Source: Arenicola marina
Taxonomy: Eukaryota > Annelida > Polychaeta > Arenicolidae
Reading direction: 5' to 3'
Assembly: GCA_964019135.1 (NCBI GenBank)
Contig: OZ025248.1
Coordinates: forward strand, 71,368,119-71,432,118
DNA length: 64,000 nt
Every line of letters begins with the position of its first letter. Within the stretch, counting starts at the first letter, position 1. Shown piece after piece: positions 22,551-52,083 of the stretch. Below the pieces are notes generated by a model that had not been told where the DNA came from, ran no database searches, and saw nothing but the letters and a program-made list of their open reading frames with translations. The translations under genes were made by a program, and so were the position numbers.

Positions 22551-22664
22551 TTGTTTCACAATGTGTCCCAGTGTAGCCTGCAGCGCATAGGCATGAATAT
22601 CCGTTGACCAGACTGGTGCAGACTCCGCCATTTAGACATGGATTGTCGTCGCATTCGTCCATGC
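22551..22664 (-). CDS. EGF exon E1
   Basis: 3'-most complete exon. It reads GYSCLC and TGTHC near the end (not TGAIC), so it is the most diverged at the last loop. Donor ACAA|GTCAGT, acceptor TTTTCAG. Confidence 0.85.
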
Positions 22665-22885
22665 CTGAAAAGAGGGGAGGATGTGACTCTTTAACTTCCA
22701 ACATAGGGAAAGGTACTCATCTCTTAATTTTAATGACTGGGACAGAAGCAAAGTCATGGTGCCTCGTAACCTAAGATTATAGTTACGTAAGATTATCTTT
22801 ATTTTCCAACGTAATCATCGTTTAATAAGACATTGGGTTCGAGAGATGATTTATTGTTCTCTATTTGAGTGGACTCGATACTGAC

Positions 22886-22999
22886 TGGTTTCACAAGTCG
22901 CCCCAGTGTAGCCTGCAGCGCATAGGCATGAATATCCGTTGACCAGACTGATGCAGACTCCGCCATTTAGACATTGATTGTCGTCGCATTCGTCCATGC
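22886..22999 (-). CDS. EGF exon E2
   Basis: DDNQC with VCISL and TGATC. Both splice sites intact. Confidence 0.85.
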
Positions 23000-23378
23000 C
23001 TGAAAAGAGGGGAAGATGTGACTCTTTAACGTCCAACATAGGGAAAGGTATCATCTCTTAATTTTATTGACTGGGACAGAAGCAAAGTCTTGGTGCCTCA
23101 TAGCATAAAATGTTAGTTACGTTAGTTAATCTCTATTACCAGGATAATCATCGTGTAATAAGATATTGGCTTCGAGAGATGATTTATTATCATTCTCTTT
23201 TTTTAGTCGATTCTTCTAACTTTTAATGACTATTACAGAAGCAAAGTATTGGTGCCTCGTAACCTAAATTGATAGTTACGTTGGATCATCTTTATTACCA
23301 GCATACTCATCGATTAATAAGATATTGGGTTCGAGAGATGAATTATTGTTCTCTATTTTGTGTTGACTCGATACTGAC

Positions 23379-23492
23379 TGGTTTCACAAATCGCCCCGGT
23401 GTAGCCTGCAGCGCACAGGCATGAATATCCGTTGACCAGACTAGTGCAGACTCCGCCATTTAGACATGGATTGTCGCCGCATTCATCCATGC
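23379..23492 (-). CDS. EGF exon E3
   Basis: DECGDNPC (Asp to Gly), GYSCLC, acceptor ACTTTCAG. First member of the 824-bp dimer. Confidence 0.85.
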
Positions 23493-23868
23493 CTGAAAGT
23501 AGGAGATGTGACTCTTTAACATCCAACATAGGGAAATGTACTCATCTCTCAATTTTAATGACTGAGACAGAAGCAAGTCATGGTGCCTCGTAACCTCAAT
23601 TGATGGTTACTTTAGATAATCTCTATTACCAGGATAATCATCGTTTAATAAGATATTGGCTTCGAGAGATGATTTATTATCATTCTCATTTTTTTAGTTG
23701 ATTCTTCTAACTATTAGTGACTGGGACGGAAGCAAAGTCTTGGTGCCTCGTAACCTAAATTGATAGTTACGTTGGTTCATCCTTATTACCAGCATAATCA
23801 TCGTTTAATAAGATATTGGGTTCGAGAGATGATTTATTGTTCTCTATTTGAGTTGACTCGATACTGAC

Positions 23869-23982
23869 TGGTTTCACAAATCGCCCCGGTGTAGCCTGCA
23901 GCGCACTGACATGAGAACCCGTTGACCAGACTGGTGCAGACTCCGCCATTTAGACATAGATTGTCGTCGCATTCGTCCATGC
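23869..23982 (-). CDS. EGF exon E4
   Basis: DDNLC (Pro to Leu) with GFSCQC. Acceptor TTTTCAG. Confidence 0.85.
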
Positions 23983-24202
23983 CTGAAAAGAGGGGAAGAT
24001 GTGACTCTTTAACGTCCAACATAGGGAAAGGTACTCATCTCTTAATTTTATTGACTGGGACAGAAGCAAAGTCTTGGTGCCTCGCAGCCTAAAATTTTAG
24101 TTACGTTAGATAAACTTTATTACCCGTATAATAATCGTGTAATAAGATATTGGGTTCGAGAGATGATTTATTGTTCTCTATTTGAGTTGACTCGATACTG
24201 AC

Positions 24203-24316
24203 TGGTTTCACAAATCGCCCCGGTGTAGCCTGCAGCGCACAGGCATGAATATCCGTTGACCAGACTAGTGCAGACTCCGCCATTTAGACATGGATTGTCG
24301 TCGCATTCATCCATGC
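24203..24316 (-). CDS. EGF exon E5
   Basis: DDNPC, GYSCLC. 824-bp partner of E3. Confidence 0.85.
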
Positions 24317-24692
24317 CTGAAAGTAGGAGATGTGACTCTTTAACATCCAACATAGGGAAATGTACTCATCTCTCAATTTTAATGACTGAGACAGAAGCAA
24401 GTCATGGTGCCTCGTAACCTCAATTGATGGTTACTTTAGATAATCTCTATTACCAGGATAATCATCGTTTAATAAGATATTGGCTTCGAGAGATGATTTA
24501 TTATCATTCTCATTTTTTTAGTTGATTCTTCTAACTATTAGTGACTGGGACAGAAGCAAAGCCTTGGTGCCTCGTAACCTAAATTGATAGTTACGTTGGT
24601 TCATCCTTATTACCAGCATAATCATCGTTTAATAAGATATTGGGTTCGAGAGATGATTTATTGTTCTCTATTTGAGTTGACTCGATACTGAC

Positions 24693-24806
24693 TGGTTTCA
24701 CAAATCGCCCCGGTGTAGCCTGCAGCGCACTGACATGAGAACCCGTTGACCAGACTGGTGCAGACTCCGCCATTTAGACATAGATTGTCGTCGCATTCGT
24801 CCATGC
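24693..24806 (-). CDS. EGF exon E6
   Basis: DDNLC, GFSCQC. 824-bp partner of E4, protein identical. Confidence 0.85.
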
Positions 24807-25026
24807 CTGAAAAGAGGGGAAGATGTGACTCTTTAACGTCCAACATAGGGAAAGGTACTCATCTCTTAATTTTATTGACTGGGACAGAAGCAAAGTCTTG
24901 GTGCCTCGCAGCCTAAAATTTTAGTTACGTTAGATAAACTTTATTACCCGTATAATAATCGTGTAATAAGATATTGGGTTCGAGAGATGATTTATTGTTC
25001 TCTATTTGAGTTGACTCGATACTGAC

Positions 25027-25140
25027 TGGTTTCACAAATCGCCCCGGTGTAGCCTGCAGGGCACAGGCATGAATATCCGTTGACCAGACTAGTGCAGACT
25101 CCGCCATTTAGACATGGATTGTCGTCGCATTCATCCATGC
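25027..25140 (-). CDS. EGF exon E7
   Basis: CLCPAGYTG (Ala to Pro). Otherwise as E5. Confidence 0.85.
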
Positions 25141-25517
25141 CTGAAAGTAGGAGATGTGACTCTTTAACATCCAACATAGGGAAATGTACTCATCTCTCAA
25201 TTTTAATGACTGAGACAGAAGCAAGTCATGGTGCCTCGTAACCTCAATTGATGGTTACTTTAGATAATCTCTATTACCAGGATAATCATCGTTTAATAAG
25301 ATATTGGCTTCGAGAGATGATTTATTATCATTCTCATTTTTTGTAGTTGTGGTTCTAACTATTAGTGACTGGGACAGAAGCAAAGTCTTGGTGCCTCGTA
25401 ACCTAAATTGATAGTTACGTGGGTTCATCCTTATTACCAGCATAATCATCGTTTAATAAGATATCGGGTTCGAGAGATGAATTATTGTTCTCTATTTTGT
25501 GTTGACTCGATACTGAC

Positions 25518-25631
25518 TGGTTTCACAAATCGCCCCAGTGTAGCCTGCAGCGCATAGGCATGAATATCCGTTGTCCAGACTGGTGCAGACTCCGCCATTT
25601 AGACATGGATTGTCGTCGCATTCGTCCATGC
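25518..25631 (-). CDS. EGF exon E8 (P)
   Basis: SLDNGYSC variant (Val to Asp). Acceptor TTTTCAG. Confidence 0.85.
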
Positions 25632-25815
25632 CTGAAAAGAGGGGAGGATGTGACTCTCTAACGTCTAAAATAGGAACTGGTGCACATCTCTTCATTTAAA
25701 TTTAAATTATAGTTACGTTAGATAATCTTTATTACCAGTATAAGTATCTGTTAATAAGATATTGGATTCGAGAGATGATTTATTGTTCTCTATTTTGAGT
25801 TGACTCGATACTGAC

Positions 25816-25929
25816 TGGTTTCACAAATTGCCCCAGTGTAGCCTGCAGCGCATAGGCATGAATATCCGTTGACCAGACTGGTGCAGACTCCGCCATTTAG
25901 ACATTGATTGTCGTCGCATTCGTCCATGC
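25816..25929 (-). CDS. EGF exon E9 (Q)
   Basis: DDNQC, GYSCLC, separated from E8 by a 184-bp intron, among the shortest in the array. Confidence 0.85.
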
Positions 25930-26310
25930 CTGAAAAGAGGGGAGGATGTGACTCTTTAACGTCCAACATAGGTAAAGGTACTCATCTCTTAATTTTATTG
26001 ACTGGGACAGCAGCAAAGTCTTGGTGCCTCATAGCCTAAAATGTTAGTTACGTTAGTTAATCTTTATTACCAGGATAATCATCGTGTAATAAGATATTGG
26101 CTTCGAGAGATGATTTATTATCATTCTCTTTTTTTTAGTTGATTCTTCTAGCTTTTAGTGACTGGGACAGAAGCAAAGTATTGGTGCCTCGTAACCTAAA
26201 TTGATAGTTACGTTGGTTCATCCTTATTACCAGCGTAATCATCGTTTAATAAGATATTGGGTTCGACAGATGAATTATTGTTCTCTATTTTGTGTTGACT
26301 CGATACTGAC

Positions 26311-26424
26311 TGGTTTCACAAATCGCCCCAGTGTAGCCTGCAGCGCATAGGCATAAATATCCGTTGACCAGACTGGTGCAGACTCCGCCATTTAGACATG
26401 GATTGTCGTCGCATTCGTCCATGC
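26311..26424 (-). CDS. EGF exon E10 (P)
   Basis: GYLCLC (Ser to Leu before the fourth Cys). Confidence 0.85.
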
Positions 26425-26608
26425 CTGAAAAGAGGGGAAGATGTGACTTTCTAACGTCTAAAATAGGGACTGGTGCACATCTCTTCATTTTAGTTTTAAA
26501 TTATAGTTTCGTTAAATAATCTTTATTACCAGGATAATCATCGTTTAATAAGATATTATTATCGAGAGATGATTTATTGTTCTCTATTTAAGTTGACTCG
26601 ATACTGAC

Positions 26609-26722
26609 TGGTTTCACAAATCGCCCCAGTGTAGCCTGCAGCGCATAGGCATGAATATCCGTTGACCAGACTAGTGCAGACTCCGCCATTTAGACATGGA
26701 TTGTCGTCGCATTCATCCATGC
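26609..26722 (-). CDS. EGF exon E11 (R)
   Basis: Consensus DDNPC/GYSC. Acceptor CCTACTTTCAG. Confidence 0.85.
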
Positions 26723-27101
26723 CTGAAAGTAGGAGAAGATGTGACTCTTTAACATCCAACATAGGGAAATGTACTCATCTCTCAATTTTAATGACTGAGA
26801 CAGAAGCAAAGTCATGGTGCCTCGTAACCTCAATTGCTAGTTACTTTAGATAATCTTTATTACCAGGATAATCATCGTTTAATAAGATATTGGCTTCGAG
26901 AGATGATTTATTATCATTCTCATTTTTTAGGTGATTCTTCTAACCATTAATGACTGGGACAGAAGCAAAGTCTTGGTGCATCGTAACCTAAATTGATAGT
27001 TACGCTGGTTCATCCTTATTACCAGCATAATCATCGTTTAATAAGATATTGGGTTCGAGAGATGATTTATTGTTCTCTATTTGAGTTGACTCGATACTGA
27101 C

Positions 27102-27215
27102 TGGTTTCACAAATCGCCCCAGTGTAGCCTGCAGCGCACTGACATGAGAACCCGTTGACCAGACTGGTGCAGACTCCGCCATTTAGACATGGATTGTCGT
27201 TACATTCGTCCATGC
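27102..27215 (-). CDS. EGF exon E12 (S)
   Basis: DECNDN (Asp to Asn), GFSCQC. Acceptor TTTCCAG. Confidence 0.85.
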
Positions 27216-27596
27216 CTGGAAAGAGGGGAAGATGTGACTCTTTAACGTCCAACATGGGGAAAGGTACTCATCTCCTTATTTTATTGACTGGAACAGAAGC
27301 AAATTCTTGGTGCCTGTCAGCCTAAAATTTTAGTTTCGTTAGATAAACTTTATGACCAGTATAATCATCGTTTAATAAGATATTGGCTTCGAGAGATGAT
27401 TTATTATCATTCTCTTTTTTTTAGTTGATTCTTCTAGCTTTTAGTGACTATAACAGAAGCAAAGTATTGGTGCCTCGGAACCTAAATTGATAGTTACGTT
27501 GATTCATCCTTATTACCAGCATAATCATCGTTTAATAAGATATTGGGTTCGACAGATGAATTATTGTTCTCTATTTTGTGTTGACTCGATACTGAC

Positions 27597-27710
27597 TGGT
27601 TTCACAAATCGCCCCAGTGTAGCCTGCAGCGCATAGGCATAAATATCCGTTGACCAGACTGGTGCAGACTCCGCCATTTAGACATGGGTTGTCGTCGCAT
27701 TCGTCCATGC
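27597..27710 (-). CDS. EGF exon E13 (P)
   Basis: DDNPC, GYLCLC. Confidence 0.85.
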
Positions 27711-27893
27711 CTGAAAAGAAGGGAAGATGTGACTCTCTAACGTCTAAAATAGGAACTGGTGCACATCTCTTCATTTAAATTTAAATTATAGTTACGTTAG
27801 ATAATCTTTATTACCAGTATAAGTATCTGTTAATAAGATATTGGATTCGAGAGATGATTTATTGTCTCTATTTTGAGTTGACTCGATACTGAC

Positions 27894-28007
27894 TGGTTTC
27901 ACAAATTGCCCCAGTGTAGCCTGCAGCGCATAGGCATGAATATCCGTTGACCAGACTGGTGCAGACTCCGCCATTTAGACATTGATTGTCGTCGCATTCG
28001 TCCATGC
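27894..28007 (-). CDS. EGF exon E14 (Q)
   Basis: DDNQC, GYSCLC. Confidence 0.85.
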
Positions 28008-28226
28008 CTGAAAAGAGGGGAGGATGTGACTCTTTAACGTCCAACATAGATAAAGGTACTCATCTCTTAATTTTATTGACTGGGACAGCAGCAAATCTTG
28101 GTGCCTCATGGCCTAAAATGTTAGTTACGTTAGTTAATCTCTATTACCAGGATAATCATCGTGTAATAAGATATTTGCTTCGAGAGATGATTTATTGTTC
28201 TCTATTTGAGTTGACTCGATACTGAC

Positions 28227-28340
28227 TGGTTTCACAAATCGCCCCGGTGTAGCCTGCAGCGCACTGACATGAGAACCCGTTGACCAGACTGGTGCAGACT
28301 CCGCCATTTAGACATGGATTGTCGTCGCATTGGTCCATGC
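28227..28340 (-). CDS. EGF exon E15 (T)
   Basis: MDQCDDN: Glu to Gln in the DEC motif, which would weaken calcium binding. Starts the first 2,711-bp unit. Confidence 0.85.
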
Positions 28341-28524
28341 CTGAAAAGAGGGGAAGATGTGACTTTCTAACGTCTAAAATAGGGACTGGTGCACATCTCT
28401 TCATTTTAGTTTTAAATTATAGTTTCGTTAAATAATCTTTATTACCAGGATAATCATCGTTTAATAAGATATTATTATCGAGAGATGATTTATTGTTCTC
28501 TATTTAAGTTGACTCGATACTGAC

Positions 28525-28638
28525 TGGTTTCACAAATCGCCCCAGTGTAGCCTGCAGCGCATAGGCATGAATATCCGTTGACCAGACTAGTGCAGACTCC
28601 GCCATTTAGACATGGATTGTCGTCGCATTCATCCATGC
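28525..28638 (-). CDS. EGF exon E16 (R)
   Basis: Consensus; protein identical to E11. Confidence 0.85.
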
Positions 28639-29017
28639 CTGAAAGTAGGAGAAGATGTGACTCTTTAACATCCAACATAGGGAAATGTACTCATCTCTCA
28701 ATTTTAATGACTGAGACAGAAGCAAAGTCATGGTGCCTCGTAACCTCAATTGCTAGTTACTTTAGATAATCTTTATTACCAGGATAATCATCGTTTAATA
28801 AGATATTGGCTTCGAGAGATGATTTATTATCATTCTCCTTTTTTAGGTGATTCTTCTAACCATTAATGACTGGGACAGAAGCAAAGTCTTGGTGCCTCGT
28901 AACCTAAATTGATAGTTACGCTGGTTCATCCTTATTGCCAGCATAATCATCGTTTAATAAGATATTGGGTTCGAGAGATGATTTATTGTTCTCTATTTGA
29001 GTTGACTCGATACTGAC

Positions 29018-29131
29018 TGGTTTCACAAATCGCCCCAGTGTAGCCTGCAGCGCACTGACATGAGAACCCGTTGACCAGACTGGTGCAGACTCCGCCATTT
29101 AGACATGGATTGTCGTCACATTCGTCCATGC
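29018..29131 (-). CDS. EGF exon E17 (S)
   Basis: DDNPC, GFSCQC, acceptor TTTCCAG. Confidence 0.85.
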
Positions 29132-29489
29132 CTGGAAAGAGGGGAAGATGTGACTCTTTAACGTCCAACATAGGGAAAGGTACTCATCTCCTTATTTTAT
29201 TGACTGGAACAGAAGCAAATTCTTGGTGCCTGTCAGCCTAAAATTTTAGTTTCGTTAGATAAACTTTATGACCAGTATAATCATCGTTTAATAAGATATT
29301 GGCTTCGAGAGATGATTTATTATCATTCTCTTTTTTTTAGTTGATTCTTCTAGCTTTTAGTGACTGGGACAGAAGCAAAGTATTGGTGCCTCGTAACCTA
29401 AATTGATAGTTACGTTGGTTCATCCTTATTACCAGCATAATCATCGTTTAATAAGATATTGGGTTCGACAGATGAATTATTGTTCTCTA

Positions 29490-29690
<201 letters not shown>

Positions 29691-29810
29691 TTAAATTTAA
29701 ATTATAGTTACGTTAGATAAACTTTATTACCAGTATAAGTATCTGTTAATAAGATATTGGATTCGAGAGATGATTTATTGTTCTCTATTTTGAGTTGACT
29801 CGATACTGAC

Positions 29811-29924
29811 TGGTTTCACAAATTGCCCCAGTGTAGCCTGCAGCGCATAGGCATGAATATCCGTTGACCAGACTGGTGCAGACTCCGCCATTTAGACATT
29901 GATTGTCGTCGCATTCGTCCATGC
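29811..29924 (-). CDS. EGF exon E19 (Q)
   Basis: DDNQC. Confidence 0.85.
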
Positions 29925-30305
29925 CTGAAAAGAGGGGAGGATGTGACTCTTTAACGTCCAACATAGGTAAAGGTACTCATCTCTTAATTTTATTGACTGG
30001 GACAGAAGCAAAGTCTTGGTGTCTCATAGCCTAAAATGTTAGTTACGTTAGTTAATCTCTATTACCAGGATAATCATCGTGTAATAAGATATTGGCTTCG
30101 AGAGATGATTTATTATCATTCTCTTTTTTTTAGTTGATTCTTCTAGCTTTTAGTGACTATAACAGAAGCAAAGTATTGGTGCCTCGGAACCTAAATTGAT
30201 AGTTACGTTGGTTCATCCTTATTACCAGCATAATCATCGTTTAATAAGATATTGGGTTCGACAGATGAATTATTGTTCTCTATTTTGTGTTGACTCGATA
30301 CTGAC

Positions 30306-30419
30306 TGGTTTCACAAATCGCCCCAGTGTAGCCTGCAGCGCATAGGCATGAATATCCGTTGTCCAGACTGGTGCAGACTCCGCCATTTAGACATGGGTTG
30401 TCGTCGCATTCGTCCATGC
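30306..30419 (-). CDS. EGF exon E20 (P)
   Basis: SLDNGYSC variant, as E8. Confidence 0.85.
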
Positions 30420-30603
30420 CTGAAAAGAAGGGAAGATGTGACTCTCTAACGTCTAAAATAGGAACTGGTGCACATCTCGTCATTTAAATTTAAATTATAG
30501 TTACGTTAGATAATCTTTATTACCAGTATAAGTATCTGTTAATAAGATATTGGATTCGAGAGATGATTTATTGTTCTCTATTTTGAGTTGACTCGATACT
30601 GAC

Positions 30604-30717
30604 TGGTTTCACAAATTGCCCCAGTGTAGCCTGCAGCGCATAGGCATGAATATCCGTTGACCAGACTCGTGCAGACTCCGCCATTTAGACATTGATTGTC
30701 GTCGCATTCGTCCATGC
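30604..30717 (-). CDS. EGF exon E21 (Q)
   Basis: DDNQC, with a silent change in the CTSL codons. Confidence 0.85.
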
Positions 30718-30937
30718 CTGAAAAGAGGGGAGGATGTGACTCTTTAACGTCCAACATAGATAAAGGTACTCATCTCTTAATTTTATTGACTGGGACAGCA
30801 GCAAAGTCTTGGTGCCTCATAGCCTAAAATGTTAGTTACGTTAGTTAATCTCTATTACCAGGATAATCATCGTGTAATAAGATATTTTCTTCGAGAGATG
30901 ATTTATTGTTCTCTATTTGAGTTGACTCGATACTGAC

Positions 30938-31051
30938 TGGTTTCACAAATCGCCCCGGTGTAGCCTGCAGCGCACTGACATGAGAACCCGTTGACCAGAC
31001 TGGTGCAGACTCCGCCATTTAGACATGGATTGTCGTCGCATTCGTCCATGC
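30938..31051 (-). CDS. EGF exon E22 (T)
   Basis: GFSCQC. Opens the second 2,711-bp unit; DEC restored relative to E15. Confidence 0.85.
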
Positions 31052-31235
31052 CTGAAAAGAGGGGAAGATGTGACTTTCTAACGTCTAAAATAGGGACTGG
31101 TGCACATCTCTTCATTTTAGTTTTAAATTATAGTTTCGTTAAATAATCTTTATTACCAGGATAATCATCGTTTAATAAGATATTATTATCGAGAGATGAT
31201 TTATTGTTCTCTATTTAAGTTGACTCGATACTGAC

Positions 31236-31349
31236 TGGTTTCACAAATCGCCCCAGTGTAGCCTGCAGCGCATAGGCATGAATATCCGTTGACCAGACTA
31301 GTGCAGACTCCGCCATTTAGACATGGATTGTCGTCGCATTCATCCATGC
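31236..31349 (-). CDS. EGF exon E23 (R)
   Basis: Consensus, 2,711 bp from E16. Confidence 0.85.
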
Positions 31350-31728
31350 CTGAAAGTAGGAGAAGATGTGACTCTTTAACATCCAACATAGGGAAATGTA
31401 CTCATCTCTCAATTTTAATGACTGAGACAGAAGCAAAGTCATGGTGCCTCGTAACCTCAATTGCTAGTTACTTTAGATAATCTCTATTACCAGGATAATC
31501 GTCGTTTAATAAGATATTGGCTTCGAGAGATGATTTATTATCATTCTCCTTTTTTAGGTGATTCTTCTAACCATTAATGACTGGGACAGAAGCAAAGTCT
31601 TGGTGCCTCGTAACCTAAATTGATAGTTACGCTGGTTCATCCTTATTACCAGCATAATCATCGTTTAATAAGATATTGGGTTCGAGAGATGATTTATTGT
31701 TCTCTATTTGAGTTGACTCGATACTGAC

Positions 31729-31842
31729 TGGTTTCACAAATCGCCCCAGTGTAGCCTGCAGCGCACTGACATGAGAACCCGTTGACCAGACTGGTGCAGA
31801 CTCCGCCATTTAGACATGGATTGTCGTCACATTCGTCCATGC
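31729..31842 (-). CDS. EGF exon E24 (S)
   Basis: GFSCQC, 2,711 bp from E17. Confidence 0.85.
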
Positions 31843-32200
31843 CTGGAAAGAGGGGAAGATGTGACTCTTTAACGTCCAACATAGGGAAAGGTACTCATCT
31901 CCTTATTTTATTGACTGGAACAGAAGCAAATTCTTGGTGCCTGTCAGCCTAAAATTTTAGTTTCGTTAGATAAACTTTATGACCAGTATAATCATCGTTT
32001 AATAAGATATTGGCTTCGAGAGATGATTTATTATCATTCTCTTTTTTTTAGTTGATTCTTCTAGCTTTTAGTGACTGGGACAGAAGCAAAGTATTGGTGC
32101 CTCGTAACCTAAATTGATAGTTACGTTGGTTCATCCTTATTACCAGCATAATCATCGTTTAATAAGATATTGGGTTCGACAGATGAATTATTGTTCTCTA

Positions 32201-32401
<201 letters not shown>

Positions 32402-32521
32402 TTAAATTTAAATTATAGTTACGTTAGATAAACTTTATTACCAGTATAAGTATCTGTTAATAAGATATTGGATTCGAGAGATGATTTATTGTTCTCTATT
32501 TTGAGTTGACTCGATACTGAC

Positions 32522-32635
32522 TGGTTTCACAAATTGCCCCAGTGTAGCCTGCAGCGCATAGGCATGAATATCCGTTGACCAGACTGGTGCAGACTCCGCC
32601 ATTTAGACATTGATTGTCGTCGCATTCGTCCATGC
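32522..32635 (-). CDS. EGF exon E26 (Q)
   Basis: DDNQC. Its acceptor tract has CATTTCAG in place of CTTTTCAG. Confidence 0.85.
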
Positions 32636-33016
32636 CTGAAATGAGGGGAGGATGTGACTCTTTAACGTCCAACATAGGTAAAGGTACTCATCTCTTAATT
32701 TTATTGACTGGGACAGAAGCAAAGTCTTGGTGTCTCATAGCCTAAAATGTTAGTTACGTTAGTTAATCTCTATTACCAGGATAATCATCGTGTAATAAGA
32801 TATTGGCTTCGAGAGATGATTTATTATCATTCTCTTTTTTTTAGTTGATTCTTCTAGCTTTTAGTGACTATAACAGAAGCAAAGTATTGGTGCCTCGGAA
32901 CCTAAATTGATAGTTACGTTGGTTCATCCTTATTACCAGCATAATCATCGTTTAATAAGATATTGGGTTCGACAGATGAATTATTGTTCTCTATTTTGTG
33001 TTGACTCGATACTGAC

Positions 33017-33130
33017 TGGTTTCACAAATCGCCCCAGTGTAGCCTGCAGCGCATAGGCATGAATATCCGTTGTCCAGACTGGTGCAGACTCCGCCATTTA
33101 GACATGGGTTGTCGTCGCATTCGTCCATGC
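33017..33130 (-). CDS. EGF exon E27 (P)
   Basis: SLDNGYSC variant, 2,711 bp from E20. Confidence 0.85.
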
Positions 33131-33314
33131 CTGAAAAGAAGGGAAGATGTGACTCTCTAACGTCTAAAATAGGAACTGGTGCACATCTCGTCATTTAAAT
33201 TTAAATTATAGTTACGTTAGATAATCTTTATTACCAGTATAAGTATCTGTTAATAAGATATTGGATTCGAGAGATGATTTATTGTTCTCTATTTTGAGTT
33301 GACTCGATACTGAC

Positions 33315-33428
33315 TGGTTTCACAAATTGCCCCAGTGTAGCCTGCAGCGCATAGGCATGAATATCCGTTGACCAGACTGGTGCAGACTCCGCCATTTAGA
33401 CATTGATTGTCGTCGCATTCGTCCATGC
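33315..33428 (-). CDS. EGF exon E28 (Q)
   Basis: DDNQC. Confidence 0.85.
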
Positions 33429-33648
33429 CTGAAAAGAGGGGAGGATGTGACTCTTTAACGTCCAACATAGGTAAAGGTACTCATCTCTTAATTTTATTGA
33501 CTGGGACAGCAGCAAAGTCTTGGTGCCTCATAGCCTAAAATGTTAGTTACGTTAGTTAATCTCTATTACCAGGATAATCATCGTGTAATAAGATATTTTC
33601 TTCGAGAGATGATTTATTGTTCTCTATTTGAGTTGACTCGATACTGAC

Positions 33649-33762
33649 TGGTTTCACAAATCGCCCCGGTGTAGCCTGCAGCGCACTGACATGAGAACCC
33701 GTTGACCAGACTGGTGCAGACTCCGCCATTTAGACATGGATTGTCGTCGCATTCGTCCATGC
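33649..33762 (-). CDS. EGF exon E29 (T)
   Basis: GFSCQC. Opens the third 2,711-bp unit. Confidence 0.85.
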
Positions 33763-33946
33763 CTGAAAAGAGGGGAAGATGTGACTTTCTAACGTCTAAA
33801 ATAGGGACTGGTGCACATCTCTTCATTTTAGTTTTAAATTATAGTTTCGTTAAATAATCTTTATTACCAGGATAATCATCGTTTAATAAGATATTATTAT
33901 CGAGAGATGATTTATTGTTCTCTATTTAAGTTGACTCGATACTGAC

Positions 33947-34060
33947 TGGTTTCACAAATCGCCCCAGTGTAGCCTGCAGCGCATAGGCATGAATATCCGT
34001 TGACCAGACTAGTGCAGACTCCGCCATTTAGACATGGATTGTCGTCGCATTCATCCATGC
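33947..34060 (-). CDS. EGF exon E30 (R)
   Basis: Consensus. Confidence 0.85.
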
Positions 34061-34439
34061 CTGAAAGTAGGAGAAGATGTGACTCTTTAACATCCAACAT
34101 AGGGAAATGTACTCATCTCTCAATTTTAATGACTGAGACAGAAGCAAAGTCATGGTGCCTCGTAACCTCAATTGCTAGTTACTTTAGATAATCTCTATTA
34201 CCAGGATAATCGTCGTTTAATAAGATATTGGCTTCGAGAGATGATTTATTATCATTCTCCTTTTTTAGGTGATTCTTCTAACCATTAATGACTGGGACAG
34301 AAGCAAAGTCTTGGTGCCTCGTAACCTAAATTGATAGTTACGCTGGTTCATCCTTATTACCAGCATAATCATCGTTTAATAAGATATTGGGTTCGAGAGA
34401 TGATTTATTGTTCTCTATTTGAGTTGACTCGATACTGAC

Positions 34440-40434: not shown

Positions 40435-40618
40435 CTGAAAAGAAGGGAAGATGTGACTCTCTAACGTCTAAAATAGGAACTGGTGCACATCTCTTCATTT
40501 AAATTTAAATTATAGTTACGTTTGATAATCTTTATTACCAGTATAAGTATCTGTTAATGAGATATTGGATTCGAGAGATGATTTATTGTTCTCTATTTTG
40601 AGTTGACTCGATACTGAC

Positions 40619-40732
40619 TGGTTTCACAAATTGCCCCAGTGTAGCCTGCAGCGCATAGGCATGAATATCCGTTGACCAGACTGGTGCAGACTCCGCCATT
40701 TAGACATTGATTGTCGTCGCATTCGTCCATGC
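40619..40732 (-). CDS. EGF exon E47 (Q)
   Basis: DDNQC. Confidence 0.85.
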
Positions 40733-41113
40733 CTGAAAAGAGGGGAGGATGTGACTCTTTAACGTCCAACATAGGTAAAGGTACTCATCTCTTAATTTTA
40801 TTGACTGGGACAGAAGCCAAGTCTTGGTGCCTCATAGCCTAAAATGTTAGTTACGTTAGTTAATCTCTATTACCAGGATAATCATCGTGTAATAAGATAT
40901 TGGCTTCGAGAGATGATTTATTATCATTCTCTTTTTTTTAGTTGATTCTTCTAGCTTTTAGTGACTGGGACAGAAGCAAAGTATTGGTGCCTCGTAACCT
41001 AAATTGGTAGTTACGTTGGTTCATCCTTATTACCAGCATAATCATCGTTTAATAAGATATCGGGTTCGAGAGATGAATTATTGTTCTCTATTTTGAGTTG
41101 ATTCGATACTGAC

Positions 41114-41227
41114 TGGTTTCACAAATCGCCCCAGTGTAGCCTGCAGCGCATAGGCATAAATATCCGTTGACCAGACTGGTGCAGACTCCGCCATTTAGAC
41201 ATGGGTTGTCGTCGCATTCGTCCATGC
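41114..41227 (-). CDS. EGF exon E48 (P)
   Basis: GYLCLC, intron type as E39. Confidence 0.85.
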
Positions 41228-41411
41228 CTGAAAAGAGGGGAAGATGTGACTCTCTAACGTCTAAAATAGGGACTGGTGCATATCTCGTCATTTTATTTTA
41301 AATGTAATTTACGTTAGATAATCTTTATTACCAGTATAAGTATTGTTAAAAAAAGATATTAGATTCGAGAGATGATTTATTGTCCTCTATTTAAGTTGAC
41401 TCGATACTGAC

Positions 41412-41525
41412 TGGTTTCACAAATCGCCCCAGTGTAGCCTGCAGCGCACAGGCATGAATATCCGTTGACCAGACTGGTGCAGACTCCGCCATTTAGACAT
41501 GGGTTGTCGTCGCATTCGTCCATGC
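41412..41525 (-). CDS. EGF exon E49 (R/P hybrid)
   Basis: R-type donor side joined to a P-type acceptor side (CTTCTTTTCAG), a visible crossover product. Confidence 0.85.
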
Positions 41526-41709
41526 CTGAAAAGAAGGGAAGATGTGACTCTCTAACGTCTAAAATAGGAACTGGTGCACATCTCTTCATTTAAATTTAAA
41601 TTATAGTTACGTTTGATAATCTTTTTTACCAGTATAAGTATCTGTTAATGAGATATTGGATTCGAGAGATGATTTATTGTTCTCTATTTTGAGTTGACTC
41701 GATACTGAC

Positions 41710-41823
41710 TGGTTTCACAAATTGCCCCAGTGTAGCCTGCAGCGCATAGGCATGAATATCCGTTGACCAGACTGGTGCAGACTCCGCCATTTAGACATTG
41801 ATTGTCGTCGCATTCGTCCATGC
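41710..41823 (-). CDS. EGF exon E50 (Q)
   Basis: DDNQC. Confidence 0.85.
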
Positions 41824-42180
41824 CTGAAAAGAGGGGAGGATGTGACTCTTTAACGTCCAACATAGGTAAAGGTACTCATCTCTTAATTTTATTGACTGGG
41901 ACAGAAGCCAAGTCTTGGTGCCTCATAGCCTAAAATGTTAGTTACGTTAGTTAATCTCTATTACCAGGATAATCATCGTGTAATAAGATATTGGCTTCGA
42001 GAGATGATTTATTATCATTCTCTTTTTTTTAGTTGATTCTTTAGCTTTTAGTGACTGGGACAGAAGCAAAGTATTGGTGCCTCGTAACCTAAATTGGTAG
42101 TTACGTTGGTTCATCCTTATTACCAGCATAATCATCGTTTAATAAGATATCGGGTTCGAGAGATGAATTATTGTTCTCTA

Positions 42181-42387
<207 letters not shown>

Positions 42388-42501
42388 TTAAATGTAATTT
42401 ACGTTAGATAATGTTTATTACCAGTATAAGTATTGTTAAAAAAAGATATTAGATTCGAGAGATGATTTATTGTTCTCTATTTAAGTTGACTCGATACTGA
42501 C

Positions 42502-42615
42502 TGGTTTCACAAATCGCCCCAGTGTAGCCTGCAGCGCACAGGCATGAATATCCGTTGACCAGACTGGTGCAGACTCCGCCATTTAGACATTGATTGTCGT
42601 CGCATTCGTCCATGC
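42502..42615 (-). CDS. EGF exon E52 (R/Q hybrid)
   Basis: R-type donor side, Q-type DDNQC. The right-most of the 114-nt near-identical exons. Confidence 0.85.
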
Positions 42616-44072: not shown

Positions 44073-44198
44073 CTGGGTAGTCACTGATTTCACAAGTCGT
44101 CCCAGTGTAGCCTGCAGCGCACTGACATGAGAACCCGTTGACCAGACTGGTGCAGACTGCGCCATTTAGACACGGGTTGTCGTCGCATTCATCCATGC
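44073..44198 (-). CDS. EGF exon E53, 126-nt type
   Basis: [26 protein letters not shown]...TCEISDYPG. It runs four codons past the usual donor to CCCAG|GTAACA and is still phase 1-1. Acceptor CTTTAAG. Confidence 0.85.
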
Positions 44199-44407
44199 CT
44201 TAAAGGAGGAGAAGATGTGACCTTTTAACATCATAACTCATCTCTCAATTTTGGTGCCTTCGACAGAAGCAAAGTCATGGTGCCCCTGTAACCTAAAATT
44301 AAAATTACGTTAGATAATCTTCATTACCAAGATAATCATCGTTTAATGAGATATTGGGTTCGAGAGATGACTTATTATTCTCTATTTTTAGTTGATTTGA
44401 TACTGAC

Positions 44408-44502
44408 TGGTTTTAAAAATCGCCCCCGTGTAGACTGCAGCGCACAGACATGAGAACCCGTCGACCAGACTAGTGCAGACTCCGCCATGGTGACATGGAT
44501 TG
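44408..44502 (-). pseudogene. dead EGF exon D2
   Basis: Same lesions as D1 (no cysteine 6, no acceptor). Confidence 0.75.
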
Positions 44503-45620
44503 CCTCTCCCCTCGAAAACTTAGGGTTTCGTTCATCCCTTAACTTGGGGTACTGCCCCAATTTAGGGTGTCTCCGTTTGCCTAATTTTGGATGTCTCCCT
44601 TGCCTTAAATTACGTGTCGACTCTCGCCTAAACTAGGTGTTTCCCCTCACCTAACTTTAAGTGTATCCCCTCTTCAAACTTTGGGCGTCTCTCCTCCCCT
44701 AACTTGGGGTGTCTCTCCTTCCCTGACTTGGGAGTCTACCCTCCCTGCCCTAACTTGGGGTGGCTCCGCTTGCCTAACTTGGGGTGTCGCCACTCCCCTA
44801 ACTTAGGTGTTTCCCTTCCCCTAACCTTAAGTGTATCCCCTCCTCACACTTTGGGCGTCTGTCTTCCCCTAACTTGGGGTGTCTCTCCTTCCCTAACATG
44901 GGTGTCTCCCCTCCCTACTTTAACTTGGGTGTCTTTCCTGCCCTAATTTAGTGTCTCCCCTCCCCTAACTTCGATGTCTTCTCTCCCTAACTTAGGGTCT
45001 CTCCCCACCCAAAACTTAGGGTCTCTTCCATCTCTTAACTTGGGGTACAACCCCAACTTAGGGTGTCTCCCCTCTCTCTACTTGGGCTATCTCCGCTTGC
45101 CTGACTTGGGGTGTCTTCCCTCCCCTAACTTATGGTGTCTCCCCTCCCCTAACGTTCGGTGTCTGCTCTCCCATAACTTCGCGGGTCTCCCCTACTCCAA
45201 AACTGTTCTTCTTCCTTCAAATTGATAGGGTTCTTCTCTGTAGTAGCGCAATGACCTGTCAACCACGCGGTAATGCAATTATAAAGACTGCGTTAAACTT
45301 GTTATACAGTTTATATTGGAGCATTGACCTTCAACCACGCGGTAATATACTAATATAGACGTTACAAAACTGAAGTAGTTGTCTGCTTCATTTCTGTGAG
45401 TGCACCATCATATTTGTTTAATGTTCTGGGAAGGTTCGCTCGTAATATTAAAAAAAACATTGTCCGAATGTTTTCCGAATATTCCGCCAATGTTCCCGGA
45501 ATATTACCAAACAACATTCCCCGAATATTAAGAAAACTTTCCTGAAAAACATTCCCGGAATGTTTTTTGGTAATACTGCCGTAACATTGACGGAATATTC
45601 GGAGAGTATTATTTTGTTAC

Positions 45621-45746
45621 CTGGGTAGTCACTGATTTCACAAGTCGTCCCAGTGTAGCCTGCAGCGCACTGACATGAGAACCCGTTGACCAGACTGGTG
45701 CAGACTGCGCCATTTAGACATGGGTTGTCGTCGCATTCATCCATGC
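45621..45746 (-). CDS. EGF exon E54, 126-nt type
   Basis: As E53. Donor CAG|GTAACA intact; the neighbouring hairpin has one arm mismatch. Confidence 0.85.
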
Positions 45747-45967
45747 CTTAAAGGAGGAGAAGATGTGACCCTTTAACTCATACATAGGGAAAGGTACTCA
45801 TCTCTCAATTTCGGGGACTGCGACAGAAGCAAAGTCATGGTGCCCCTGTAACCTAAAATTAAAATTACGTTAGATAACCTTCATTCCCAAGATAATCATC
45901 GTTTAATAAGATATTGGGTTCGAGAGATGACTTATTATTCTCTATTTTTAGTTGATTTGATAATGAC

Positions 45968-46062
45968 TGGTTTGAAAAATCGCCCCCGTGTAGACTGCAG
46001 CGCACAGACATGAGAACACGCTGGCCAGACTAGTGCAGACTCCGCCATGGTGACATGGATTG
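45968..46062 (-). pseudogene. dead EGF exon D3
   Basis: Donor-side TTTGAAAAATCG variant; otherwise as D1. Confidence 0.75.
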
Positions 46063-47177
46063 TCTCTACCCTCGAAAACTGAGGGTCTCTTCCATCCTTA
46101 ACTTGGGGTACTGTCCCAACTTGGGTGTCTCCGTTTGCCTAATTTTGGATGTCTCCCTTCCCTTTAGTTAGGTGTCGACTCTCGCCTAAATTAGGTGTTT
46201 CCCCTCACCTAACTTTAAGTGTATACCCTCTTCAAACTTTGGGCGTCCTTCCTCCCCTAACTTGGGGTGTCTCTCCTTCCCTGACTTGGGAGTCTACCCT
46301 CCCTGCCCTAACTTGGGGTGGCTCCGCTTGCCTAACTTGGGGTGTCGCCACTCCCCTAACTTAGGTGTTTCCCCTCCCCTAACTTTAAGTGTATCCCCTC
46401 CTCACACTTTGGGCGTCTCTCTTCCCCTAACTTGGGGTGTCTCTCCTTCCCTAACATGGGTGTCTCCCCTCCCTACTTTAACTTGGGTGTCTTTCCTGCC
46501 CTAATTTAGTGTCTCCCCTCCCCTAACTTTGATGTCTTCTCTCCCTAACTTAGGGTCTCTCCCCACCCAAAACTTAGGGTCTCTTCCATCTCTTAACTTG
46601 GGGTACAACCCCAACTTAGGGTGTCTCCCCTCTCTCTACTTGGGATATCTCCGCTTGCCTGACTTGGGGTGTCTTCCCTCCCCTAACTTATGGTGTCCCC
46701 CCTCCCCTAACGTTCGGTGTCTGCTCTCCCATAACTTAGCGGTCTCCCCTACTCCAAAACTGTTCTTCTTCCTTCAAATTGATAGGGTTCTTCTCTGTAG
46801 TAGCGCAATGACCTGTCAACCACGCGGTAATGTAATTATAAAGACTGCGTTAAACTTGTTATACAGTTTATATTGGAGCATTGACCTTCAACCACGCGGT
46901 AATATACTAATATAGACGTTACAAAACTGAAGTAGTTGTCTGCTTCATTTCTGTGAGTGCACCATCATATTTGTTTAATGTTCTGGGAAGGTTCGCTCGT
47001 AATATTCAAGAAAACATTGTCCGAATGTTTTCCGAATATTCCGCCAATGTTCCCGGAATATTACCAAACAACATTCCCCGAATATTAAGAAAACTTTCCT
47101 GAAAAACATTCCCGGAATGTTTTTTGGTAATACTGCCGTAACATTGGCGGAATATTCGGAGAGTATTATTTTGTTAC

Positions 47178-47303
47178 CTGGGTAGTCACTGATTTCACAA
47201 GTCGTCCCAGTGTAGCCTGCAGCGCACTGACATGAGAACCCGTTGACCAGACTGGTGCAGACTGCGCCATTTAGACACGGGTTGTCGTCGCATTCATCCA
47301 TGC
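47178..47303 (-). CDS. EGF exon E55, 126-nt type
   Basis: Nearly identical to E53, exactly 3,105 bp away from it. Confidence 0.85.
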
Positions 47304-47512
47304 CTTAAAGGAGGAGAAGATGTGACCTTTTAACATCATAACTCATCTCTCAATTTTGGTGCCTTCGACAGAAGCAAAGTCATGGTGCCCCTGTAACCTA
47401 AAATTAAAATTACGTTAGATAATCTTCATTACCAAGATAATCATCGTTTAATGAGATAATGGGTTCGAGAGATGACTTATTATTCTCTATTTTTAGTTGA
47501 TTTGATACTGAC

Positions 47513-47607
47513 TGGTTGTAAAAATCGCCCCCGTGTAGACTGCAGCGCACAGACATGAGAACCCGTCGACCAGACTAGTGCAGACTCCGCCATGGTGACA
47601 TGGATTG
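47513..47607 (-). pseudogene. dead EGF exon D4
   Basis: As D2, with a TGGTTGTAAAAAT donor-side change. Confidence 0.75.
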
Positions 47608-48725
47608 CCTCTCCCCTCGAAAACTTAGGGTTTCGTTCATCCCTTAACTTGGGGTACTGCCCCAATTTAGGGTGTCTCCGTTTGCCTAATTTTGGATGTC
47701 TCCCTTGCCTTAAATTACGTGTCGACTCTCGCCTAAACTAGGTGTTTCCCCTCACCTAACTTTAAGTGTATCCCCTCTTCAAACTTTGGGCGTCTCTCCT
47801 CCCCTAACTTGGGGTGTCTCTCCTTCCCTGACTTGGGAGTCTACCCTCCCTGCCCTAACTTGGGGTGGCTCCGCTTGCCTAACTTGGGGTGTCGCCACTC
47901 CCCTAACTTAGGTGTTTCCCTTCCCCTAACTTTAAGTGTATCCCCTCCTCACACTTTGGGCGTCTGTCTTCCCCTAACTTGGGGTGTCTCTCCTTCCCTA
48001 ACATGGGTGTCTCCCCTCCCTACTTTAACTTGGGTGTCTTTCCTGCCCTAATTTAGTGTCTCCCCTCCCCTAACTTTGATGTCTTCTCTCCCTAACTTAG
48101 GGTCTCTCCCCACCCAAAACTTAGGGTCCCTTCCATCTCTTAACTTGGGGTACAACCCCAACTTAGGGTGTCTCCCCTCTCTCTACTTGGGATATCTCCG
48201 CTTGCCTGACTTGGGGTGTCTTCCCTCCCCTAACTTATGGTGTCCCCCCTCCCCTAACGTTCGGTGTCTGCTCTCCCATAACTTCGCGGGTCTCCCCTAC
48301 TCCAAAACTGTTCTTCTTCCTTCAAATTGATAGGGTTCTTCTCTGTAGTAGCGCAATGACCTGTCAACCACGCGGTAATGCAATTATAAAGACTGCGTTA
48401 AACTTGTTATACAGTTTATATTGGAGCATTGACCTTCAACCACGCGGTAATATACTAATATAGACGTTACAAAACTGAAGTAGTTGTCTGCTTCATTTCT
48501 GTGAGTGCACCATCATATTTGTTTAATGTTCTGGGAAGGTTCGCTCGTAATATTAAAAAAAACATTGTCCGAATGTTTTCCGAATATTCCGCCAATGTTC
48601 CCGGAATATTACCAAACAACATTCCCCGAATATTAAGAAAACTTTCCTGAAAAACATTCCCGGAATGTTTTTTGGTAATACTGCCGTAACATTGGCGGAA
48701 TATTCGGAGAGTATTATTTTGTTAC

Positions 48726-48851
48726 CTGGGTAGTCACTGATTTCACAAGTCGTCCCAGTGTAGCCTGCAGCGCACTGACATGAGAACCCGTTGACCAGAC
48801 TGGTGCAGACTGCGCCATTTAGACATGGGTTGTCGTCGCATTCATCCATGC
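48726..48851 (-). CDS. EGF exon E56, 126-nt type
   Basis: As E54, 3,105 bp away. Confidence 0.85.
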
Positions 48852-49072
48852 CTTAAAGGAGGAGAAGATGTGACCCTTTAACTCATACATAGGGAAAGGT
48901 ACTCATCTCTCAATTTTGGGGACTGCGACAGAAGCAAAGTCATGGTGCCCCTGTAACCTAAAATTAAAATTACGTTAGATAACCTTCATTCCCAAGATAA
49001 TCATCGTTTAATAAGATATTGGGTTCGAGAGATGACTTATTATTCTCTATTTTTAGTTGATTTGATAATGAC

Positions 49073-49167
49073 TGGTTTGAAAAATCGCCCCCGTGTAGAC
49101 TGCAGCGCACAGACATGAGAACACGCTGGCCAGACTAGTGCAGACTCCGCCATGGTGACATGGATTG
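49073..49167 (-). pseudogene. dead EGF exon D5
   Basis: As D3. Confidence 0.75.
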
Positions 49168-50272
49168 TCTCTACCCTCGAAAACTGAGGGTCTCTTCCAT
49201 CCCTTAACTTAGGGTACTGTCCCAACTTGGGTGTCTCCGTTTGCCTAATTTTGGATGTCTCCCTTCCCTTTAGTTAGGTGTCGACTCTCGCCTAAATTAG
49301 GTGTTTCCCCTCACCTAACTTTAAGTGTATACCCTCTTCAAACTTTGGGCGTCCTTCCTCCCCTAACTTGGGGTGTCTCTCCTTCCCTGACTTGGGAGTC
49401 TACCCTCCCTGCCCTAACTTGGGGTGGCTCCGCTTGCCTAACTTGGGGTGTCGCCACTCCCCTAACTTAGGTGTTTCCCCTCCCCTAACTTTAAGTGTAT
49501 CCCCTCCTCACACTTTGGGCGTCTCTCTTCCCCTAACTTGGGGTGTCTCTCCTTCCCTAACATGGGTGTCTCCCCTCCCTACTTTAACTTGGGTGTCTTT
49601 CCTGCCCTAATTTAGTGTCTCCCCTCCCCTAACTTTGATGTCTTCTCTCCCTAACTTAGGGTCTCTCCCCACCCAAAACTTAGGGTCCCTTCCATCTCTT
49701 AACTTGGGGTACAACCCCAACTTAGGGTGTCTCCCCTCTCTCTACTTGGGATATCTCCGCTTGCCTGACTTGGGGTGTCTTCCCTCCCCTAACTTATGGT
49801 GTCCCCCCTCCCCTAACGTTCGGTGTCTGCTCTCCCATAACTTCGCGGGTCTCCCCTACTCCAAAACTGTTCTTCTTCCTTCAAATTGATAGGGTTCTTC
49901 TCTGTAGTAGCGCAATGACCTGTCAACCACGCGGTAATGCAATTATAAAGACTGCGTTAAACTTGTTATACAGTTTATATTGGAGCATTGACCTTCAACC
50001 ACGCGGTAATATACTAATATAGACGTTACAAAACTGAAGTAGTTGTCTGCTTCATTTCTGTGAGTGCACCATCATATTTGTTTAATGTTCTGGGAAGGTT
50101 CGCTCGTAATATTCAAAAAAACATTGTCCGAATGTTTTCCGAATATTCCGCCAATATACCAAACAACATTCCCCGAATATTAAGAAAACTTTCCTGAAAA
50201 ACATTCCCGGAATGTTTTTTGGTAATACTGCCGTAACATTGGCGGAATATTCGGAGAGTATTATTTTGTTAC

Positions 50273-50398
50273 CTGGGTAGTCACTGATTTCACAAGTCGT
50301 CCCAGTGTAGCCTGCAGCGCACTGACATGAGAACCCGTTGACCAGACTGGTGCAGACTGCGCCATTTAGACACGGGTTGTCGTCGCATTCATCCATGC
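50273..50398 (-). CDS. EGF exon E57, 126-nt type
   Basis: As E53 and E55. Splice sites intact. Confidence 0.85.
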
Positions 50399-50607
50399 CT
50401 TAAAGGAGGAGAAGATGTGACCTTTTAACATCATAACTCATCTCTCAATTTTGGTGCCTTCGACAGAAGCAAAGGCATGGTGCCCCTGTAACCTAAAATT
50501 AAAATTACGTTAGATAATCTTCATTACCAAGATAATCATCGTTTAATGAGATATTGGGTTCGAGAGATGACTTATTATTCTCTATTTTTAGTTGATTTGA
50601 TACTGAC

Positions 50608-50702
50608 TGGTTTTAAAAATCGCCCCCGTGTAGACTACAGCGCACAGACATGAGAACCCGTCGACCAGACTAGTGCAGACTCCGCCATGGTGACATGGAT
50701 TG
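50608..50702 (-). pseudogene. dead EGF exon D6
   Basis: As D2, with an added change in the TGCAG core (CTACAGCGCACAG). Confidence 0.75.
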
Positions 50703-51838
50703 CCTCTCCCCTCGAAAACTTAGGGTTTCGTTCATCCCTTAACTTGGGGTACTGCCCCAATTTAGGGTGTCTCCGTTTGCCTAATTTTGGATGTCTCCCT
50801 TGCCTTAAATTACGTGTCGACTCTCGCCTAAACTAGGTGTTTCCCCTCACCTAACTTTAAGTGTATCCCCTCTTCAAACTTTGGGCGTCTCTCCTCCCCT
50901 AACTTGTGATGGCTCTCCTTCCCTGACTTGGGTGTCTTGATCCCTGCCCTAACTTGGGTGTCTCCCCTCCCCTAACTTTAAGTGCATGCCCTCCTCAAAC
51001 TTTGGACGTCTCTCCTTCCCTGACATGGGTGTCTCCCCTCCTTGCCTTAACTTGGGTGTCTTTCCTGCCCTAATTTAGTGTCTCCCCTCCCCTAACTTTG
51101 ATGTCTTCTCTCCCTAACTTAGAGTCTCTCCCCACCCAAAACTTAGGGTCTCTTCCATCTCTTAACTTGGGGTACAACCCCAACTTAGGGCGTCTCCCCT
51201 CTCTCTACTTGGGCTATCTCCCCTTGCCTGACTTGGGGTGTCTTCCCTCCCCTAACTTATGGTGTCTCCCCTCCCCTAACGTTCGGTGTCTGCTCTCCCA
51301 TAACTTAGCGGTCTCCCCTACTCCAAAACTGTTCTTCTTCCTTCAAATTGATAGGGTTCTTCTCTGTAGTAGCGCAATGACCTGTCAACCACGCGGTAAT
51401 GCGATTATAAAGACTGTGCTAAACTTGTTATACAGTTTGTATTGGCGCAATGGCCTGTCAACCACGCGGTAATGCAATTATAAAGACTGCGTTAAACTTG
51501 TTATGCAGTTTATATTGGAGCATTGACCTTCAACCACGCGGTAATATACTAATATAGACGTTACAAATCTTAAGCAGTTGTCTGCTTCATTTCTGTGATC
51601 GCCGCATCATATTTGTTTAATGTTCTGGGAAGGTTCGCTCGTAATCATCAAAAAAACATTCTCCGAATGTTTTCCGAATATTCCGCCAATGTTACGGGAA
51701 TATCACCAAAGAACATTCCCCGAATATTAAGAAAACTTTCCTGGAAAACATTCCCGGAATGTTTTTTTGTAATATTGCCGTAACATTGGCGGAATATTCG
51801 GAGAGTATTATTTTGTTACCTGGGTAGTCACTGATTTC
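50608..51838. repeat. composite 1.55-kb unit, copy 6, decayed
   Basis: The minisatellite is shorter and the CAACCACGCGGTAAT spacer is expanded to three copies (51370-51560). The foldback is at 51674-51801. The live exon is deleted except for its donor-side end (about 51820-51842), where TTTCACACGTAACC joins intron sequence. Confidence 0.82.
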
Positions 51839-51969
51839 ACACGTAACCTGTAACCTAAAATTAGAATTACGTTAGATGATCTTCATTACCAGGATAATCA
51901 TCGTTTTATAAGATACTGGGTTCGAGAGATGACTTATTAATCTCTATTTTCACTTGATTTAATACTGAC

Positions 51970-52083
51970 TGGTTTGACAAATCGCCCCAGTGTAGCCTGC
52001 AGCGCATAGGCATGAATATCCGTTGATCAGACTTGTGCAGACTCCGCCATTTTCACAAGGATTGAAGTCGCATTCGTCGATGT
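51970..52083 (-). CDS. EGF exon E58, diverged, canonical cbEGF start
   Basis: A full 114-nt exon with acceptor ATTTCAG and donor ACCA|GTCAGT. It reads [20 protein letters not shown] then GYSCLC...ICQT. The first codon is split as N|AC, so Asp or Asn at the first calcium ligand is possible, unlike the Ser of E1-E57. Probably close to the ancestral module of the array. Confidence 0.85.

Follow-up and report, generated by a model that had tools for sequence, protein, structure and literature searches.

Long tandem chains of EGF modules are known from Notch and fibropellin-type proteins, and such chains usually consist of old, diverged modules. Here we analyse a stretch of 64,000 nucleotides of the annelid Arenicola marina (contig OZ025248.1; hereafter the window), in which a window scan found 58 EGF exons standing in ordered tandem on the minus strand at positions 22551-52083. 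The gene to which these exons probably belong is referred to as gene A. The order of the mitochondrial genes in this genome fits the annelid ground pattern. Duplication and skipping of EGF exons, homogenisation of repeats and egg coats made of EGF-repeat proteins are already known. Among the papers listed in searches of the open-licence literature, we found no EGF exon array of an annelid and no description of dozens of near-identical single-module EGF exons, each with its intron, across a gene family with very different exon counts.

According to the parts of the study cited here, near-identical repeats in Drosophila Dumpy, an EGF-rich giant, evolve in concert; unlike the modules of the array, the Dumpy repeat is a 102-residue PIGSFEAST unit that is not EGF and lies in one large exon without introns of its own (PMC2930355). 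ADGRE1 (F4-80) resembles the array in its tandem EGF exons, which are duplicated between species and skipped in transcripts, but the cited sections describe a membrane receptor with 7 or ~14 modules and not dozens of near-identical ones (PMC6174849). The ascidian egg-coat proteins VC57 and VC70/VC120 contain 24 or 12 EGF repeats, and repeats 3-22 of abalone VERL are homogenised by concerted evolution (PMC9265791, sections cited). In the same sections, proteins of the VC57/VC120 type have a ZP-domain end and far shorter exon arrays, with no mention of a Ly6/uPAR-like (LU) domain such as that of gene A, at which ZP domains were not searched for (PMC9265791).

Structure of the EGF exon array

The strict six-cysteine EGF pattern occurs 57 times in the window, on the minus strand in every case, and in the 58th module (start 38838) Cys1 is replaced by Tyr. 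The coordinates of the first exon (52083-51970) and the last exon (22664-22551) coincide exactly with those proposed in an initial annotation of this stretch (Table 1). In the direction of transcription, one first exon is followed by five D-type exons and then by 52 short-unit exons, the latter falling into spacing classes of 297-298, 333-335 or 490-495 bp. Each exon consists of two nucleotides (nt) of a split codon, a run of whole codons and one further nucleotide. The array exons are 114 nt long, and a length of 126 nt is possible in the five D exons, where a second GT lies 12 nt further on; the symmetric phase 1-1 and both lengths had been claimed initially and are borne out. Since every exon is phase 1-1, any subset of exons does keep the reading frame, as had also been stated. 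An AG acceptor is present in 57 of the 58 exons (AT replaces it at the exon starting at 42317), a GT donor seven bases past Cys6 in all 58, six cysteines in 57 and a stop codon in none. The claim that the array is splice-competent thus stands for the donors, the reading frames and 57 acceptors and fails for the one acceptor that is lost.

The near-identity of the modules was likewise confirmed: the 58 exons comprise 28 DNA types and 18 protein types, with 37 exons within four types. When shifted against itself by 2.71 kb, the array aligns with 98.3% identity over 7148 bases, and the longest exact repeat inside it is 1012 bp; thus, its copies are not exact duplicates of one block. A chance origin of fifty-eight ordered EGF copies is ruled far out. 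An Rfam scan of the whole window gave no matches.

We consider it probable that the array makes up the main part of a gene for an annelid extracellular-type protein, in whose family the arrays change length by exon exchange under coding constraint. The predicted order of the product is a signal-peptide-like exon, a Cys-rich domain, the LU domain and the chain of EGF modules. In fuller members of the family, the EGF array is followed by CBM14 chitin-binding and laminin-G-3 domains, a 3' half that A and its tandem copy, gene B, would have lost. The EGF exon together with its intron, a unit of 0.3-1.5 kb, would be the unit of unequal exchange. Misaligned exchange would add or remove whole modules, and the frame would survive because each unit contains a single phase 1-1 exon that encodes one EGF module. 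Exon number would then drift fast under a constrained amino-acid sequence, and exchange would spread variants and keep the copies alike. We infer unequal exchange as the agent, and secretion and a matrix or coat role for the product, a predicted spacer chain that is rich in disulfides and can change in length.

In this one family, several genes contain such long chains of young, near-identical single-module exons, gained and lost in frame. They offer a natural test for the evolution of domain-repeat length by exchange, for splicing amid dozens of near-identical exons and introns, and for the question whether module number is itself under selection. Were module number to vary between individuals, the locus would rank as an unusually large length polymorphism in coding sequence.

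Exon number in the tandem copy and in the paralogues

A segment of ~30 kb to the right of the window holds the same gene as A and is referred to as copy B (Table 1). Exon 1 differs between A and B at 3 of 115 nt. The array of B has 15 exons: counterparts of the first and last EGF exons of A, and 13 D units between them, with none of the short units, of which A has 52. In A, the short-unit types differ from each other by 14% at synonymous sites, far above the A/B difference in the shared parts; these types are therefore probably older than the duplication and would have been lost from B.

Exon-2-type exons and second LU exons were found close together at 22 loci, of which 13 lie on genomic sequence C1 and 9 on C20, with A and B among them. 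The listing of LU exon 4 holds 24 rows for these 22 loci, two loci being split into two rows in different frames; the listing of exon 2 also holds 24 rows, two of which, on C20 and on C2 respectively, lack an LU counterpart. By their exon-2 and LU exons, A and B belong at their 5' end to a family with the order LU, EGF array, CBM14 and LamG3. Four paralogues, G1-G4 (C1:70.15-70.49 Mb), resemble A in having an LU domain and tandem near-identical phase 1-1 EGF exons. The arrays of G1, G2 and G3 (C1:70.15-70.37 Mb) contain 7, 27 and 44 DN-type EGF exons, with AG and GT present in all 78, a set that leaves out one odd G3 exon, one degenerate G1 module and, in each gene, the last EGF exon, which differs from the others. 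The G4 array gives at least 45 EGF rows among the matches listed. In G1, the LU domain and the array are separated by three additional EGF exons and by a piece that we take to be TIL-like.

G1 and G2, unlike A and B, continue past the array into CBM14 and LamG3 exons. In G1, CBM14 (1.2e-6) and Laminin_G_3 (4.2e-18) both exceed the Pfam cut-offs, and a second CBM14-like piece falls under its own; G2 has the same 3' exons as G1 in the part covered by the comparison. At C1:70.19-70.21 Mb, a relative of A lies on the plus strand; the 3 kb of it that were read contain three EGF exons as well as exons of the LamG3 type. The modules of G1-G3 (DIDNCEMNPC...) also differ from those of A and B. In an exon tree of 114 columns, in which many inner forks are weak, the exons of A and B and those of G1-G3 form two separate groups (100/100), the pattern expected if the arrays grew and were homogenised separately.

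Exon number thus differs strongly between the gene copies: A has 58, B has 15, and the paralogues G1, G2 and G3 have 7, 27 and 44. These counts indicate that array length changes by whole EGF exons, which are gained and lost. The initial annotation does not include the upstream exons, the tandem gene copy, the 22-locus family or the lack of the 3' domains present in relatives.

Is this variability itself the function of the array? Transcripts could contain different subsets of exons, or each individual could have an exon number of its own, as might serve the recognition of gametes or of self. Any subset is in frame, and the counts differ strongly between copies; the cited sections also report EGF-exon skipping for ADGRE1 (PMC6174849) and polymorphism among individuals for HrVC70, an egg-coat protein with EGF repeats (PMC9265791). 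However, with 18 protein types among 58 modules and 37 exons in four of them, the choice of exons would alter the length of the product more than its sequence, and we regard such programmed diversity as quite unlikely.

Another important question is whether the array has been artificially expanded in the assembly, or whether A and B are two haplotypes placed side by side. Near-identical units are difficult to assemble, and B contains an exact repeat of 1544 bp. On the other hand, differences are scattered over the units (98.3% identity over 7.1 kb), arrays of the same kind exist in other genes, and the match between A and B is confined to a bounded block, beyond which no colinear match was found; the stretch at 56276-58706 is present in A alone. 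Mis-assembly is thus very unlikely. The haplotype duplication in particular was judged unlikely, as the flanks have no colinear match.

G2, G3 and G4 resemble serial copies ~111-118 kb apart (C1:70.15-70.50 Mb). Plus-strand relatives lie at 70.19, 70.28 and 70.39 Mb on C1, with the LU exon split over two frames in the latter two. A second cluster, at C20:9.31-9.93 Mb, comprises nine loci distributed over the two strands. Each has both of the upstream domain exons, and three have equal scores. Single-frame EGF modules, unlike the one-exon-one-module genes, were seen at C1:7919943-7922312 (1500 amino acids, aa) and C12:8337786-8340614 (1241 aa).

Coding constraint and the 3' end

The short-unit exons of A differ by 4.9% on average, and their intron flanks by 20.6% upstream and 10.4% downstream; in G2 and G3, exon divergence is 6.5-6.7% compared with 21-30% in the intron flanks. 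The ratio of nonsynonymous to synonymous differences per site (pN/pS) is 0.18 (0.07-0.42) in the A array, 0.25 (0.12-0.53) in G2 and 0.21 (0.10-0.42) in G3, and for LU exon 4, comparison with two relatives yields 0.21 and 0.45. Common variants in the A array are 10 synonymous to 5 nonsynonymous. Because the exons diverge less than the introns and pN/pS is 0.18 in A and 0.21-0.26 in the paralogues, the array has been under purifying selection for a coding function in the past.

Past the last EGF exon, an intron of the array type continues for ~180 bases, and then the similarity stops. No LamG3 rows were found on C1 between 70.464 and 71.598 Mb in a search that does recover single exons of G1-G4. 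Because no CBM14 or LamG3 lies nearby and the array-type intron ends ~180 bases after the last exon, A and B are, as read from their DNA, truncated on the 3' side in comparison with the family. A part of the shared A/B 3' block matches DNA near G2. Read without splicing, the last exon gives QYRIN and a stop in A and QYRLN and a stop in B, with an AATAAA ~1.3 kb further on; the simplest end of gene A could be a read-through of the last exon into this nearby stop. As for a 3' terminal exon, the peptides of two of the phase-1 acceptor candidates in the shared block were tested and had no Pfam match. A lone LamG3-type match lies at C1:71598205-71598309 (minus strand), ~113 kb upstream of B, with no exon-2 or LU row nearby; it perhaps belongs to a gene with no relation to these, or represents a 3' half that has been displaced.

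Several points weigh against a gene that changes its length under continuing constraint. When the 264 kb surrounding A and B were searched with the relatives' CBM14 and LamG pieces, no match was credible, and the absence of these domains makes the 58-module product of A only putative. Expression of gene A and the inclusion of its exons are predictions from genomic sequence, and exchange is deduced from copy number rather than from observed breakpoints. The intron distances come from automatic alignment of introns unequal in length, and the pN/pS of G1, 0.26 (0.03-1.27), is indistinguishable from 1. Between A and B there are 8 nonsynonymous changes and 1 synonymous change in 643 nt. Rare variants of the short array in A are 11 nonsynonymous to 2 synonymous, close to the neutral 242:75; the corresponding counts are 18:11 in G2 and 15:11 in G3. 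No selection is visible on A and B since their split, and the recent changes look neutral. One acceptor and one cysteine have been lost in the A array. Taken with the missing 3' domains, the neutral-looking recent changes mean that A may be decaying.

It is therefore possible, if doubtful, that A and B are decaying, 3'-truncated duplicates whose array is now satellite-like, expanding and contracting free of selection, with open frames that are inherited from a functional past and kept alike by exchange. This explanation overlaps with the favoured one on the origin of the array and differs on its present function. Besides the missing CBM14/LamG exons, the abrupt end of the array-type intron, the 8:1 and 11:2 ratios and the two losses in the array, the neighbouring EGF exon, already a relic, speaks for it. 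Decay is opposed by the absence of stops in all 58 exons and of frameshifts in the 643 nt of upstream exons compared between A and B, although few would be expected at such divergence, and by the strong constraint on older array variation (common variants 10:5 in favour of synonymous ones, pN/pS 0.18). The favoured reading, a coding array that changes length by exchange, remains in our view the more probable description of the array.

Upstream exons and the predicted product

The exons of gene A upstream of the array were called by eye from reading frame and splice sites; likewise, the signal-peptide likeness of exon 1 was judged by eye, without a signal-peptide program (Table 1). These exons are compatible in phase with one another, and a possible end of exon 4 has the phase required by the first array exon. 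Together, LU exons 3 and 4 score 23.3 for Toxin_TOLIP (cut-off 21.2), 21.3 for UPAR_LY6 (24.8) and 22 for UPAR_LY6_2 (31.5); the LU relative in G1 scores below all three cut-offs. Gene A would skip the relic EGF exon between the LU exons and the array.

Table 1 Features of gene A and its surroundings (window positions)
Feature	Position	Strand	Remarks
Duplicated segment	19867..61090		duplicated as copy B at C1:71455725-71485783; identity 97.9% over 3215 bp around the 5' exons, 89.1% over 2413 bp further upstream, 95.6% over 2872 bp at the 3' end
A-only stretch	56276..58706		reverse-transcriptase-like frames, judged by eye, not searched
Exon 1	55912..56026	-	ATG and hydrophobic signal-peptide-like stretch (MAVNTHFLLYVVMLCGIIAG...); frame and GT donor judged by eye
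Exon 2	55368..55598	-	Cys-rich domain, phase 1-1; without Pfam match; relatives at 24 genomic places
Exon 3	54943..55043	-	first part of LU domain; identical in copy B
Exon 4	53957..54152	-	second part of LU domain; 22 loci genome-wide (24 rows)
Relic EGF exon	52805..52893	-	outer cysteines gone, outside the 58; 45-48% identity to paralogue EGF exon; stretch missing in B
17-bp minisatellite	52689..52804		cuts off the relic EGF exon; Tandem Repeats Finder, 6.9 copies
First EGF exon	51970..52083	-	EGF pattern match; B counterpart differs by one codon
Five D-type EGF exons	44085..50398	-	~1547-bp units; 114 nt, or 126 nt via second donor
52 short-unit EGF exons	22551..42615	-	including last exon 22664-22551; ~2.71-kb higher-order repeat through the middle

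Two array modules score 51.4 bits for the EGF-like family PF00008 (cut-off 21.5), and 20.5 bits, under the cut-off of 27, for the calcium-binding EGF family PF07645. The modules were compared with calcium-binding and glycosylation patterns, with one split base assumed for all exons. The N-terminal calcium-binding pattern (D/N-x-D/N-E/Q) occurs in at most 1 of the 58 array modules, there by way of the assumed base, and the Cys3 pattern (D/N after Cys3) in none; in G1-G3 the corresponding counts are 0/78 and 77/78. A calcium-stiffened rod was thus rejected for the array in the window. The pattern C5xxGx(S/T)GxxC6, which we take to be the site of O-GlcNAc addition by EOGT, is present in all 58 modules, and the O-fucose and O-glucose patterns typical of Notch in none. 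The predicted chain amounts to ~2204 EGF residues or slightly more, behind the LU domain, and we infer that the product would serve as a flexible spacer, perhaps carrying glycans.

A broader proposal would be that the whole annelid family uses its length-changing EGF arrays as a tunable spacer for egg coat, mucus, tube or adhesive, with chains of 7 to 58 modules or more that vary by individual and perhaps by transcript, the gene in the window being an extreme member that is still expressed. We consider this unlikely.

Other repeats in and near the window

A 57-bp tandem repeat of ~40 copies extends over L012:9046-10000 and window positions 1-1405. An open frame of 257 aa on the plus strand (window 715-1485) repeats a Ser/Thr/Pro-rich unit of 19 residues (TVSDVTVTPGDSTPGTGAS), which would be mucin-like if coding. 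At L023:38-5008 (C1:71.532-71.537 Mb), a 139-bp tandem repeat forms two stretches with ~36 copies and contains short frames with words similar to TCISGNGRPLCQC. Finally, a 17-bp tandem repeat with 92 copies occupies window positions 61094-62588 and contains plus-strand open frames of up to 553 aa.

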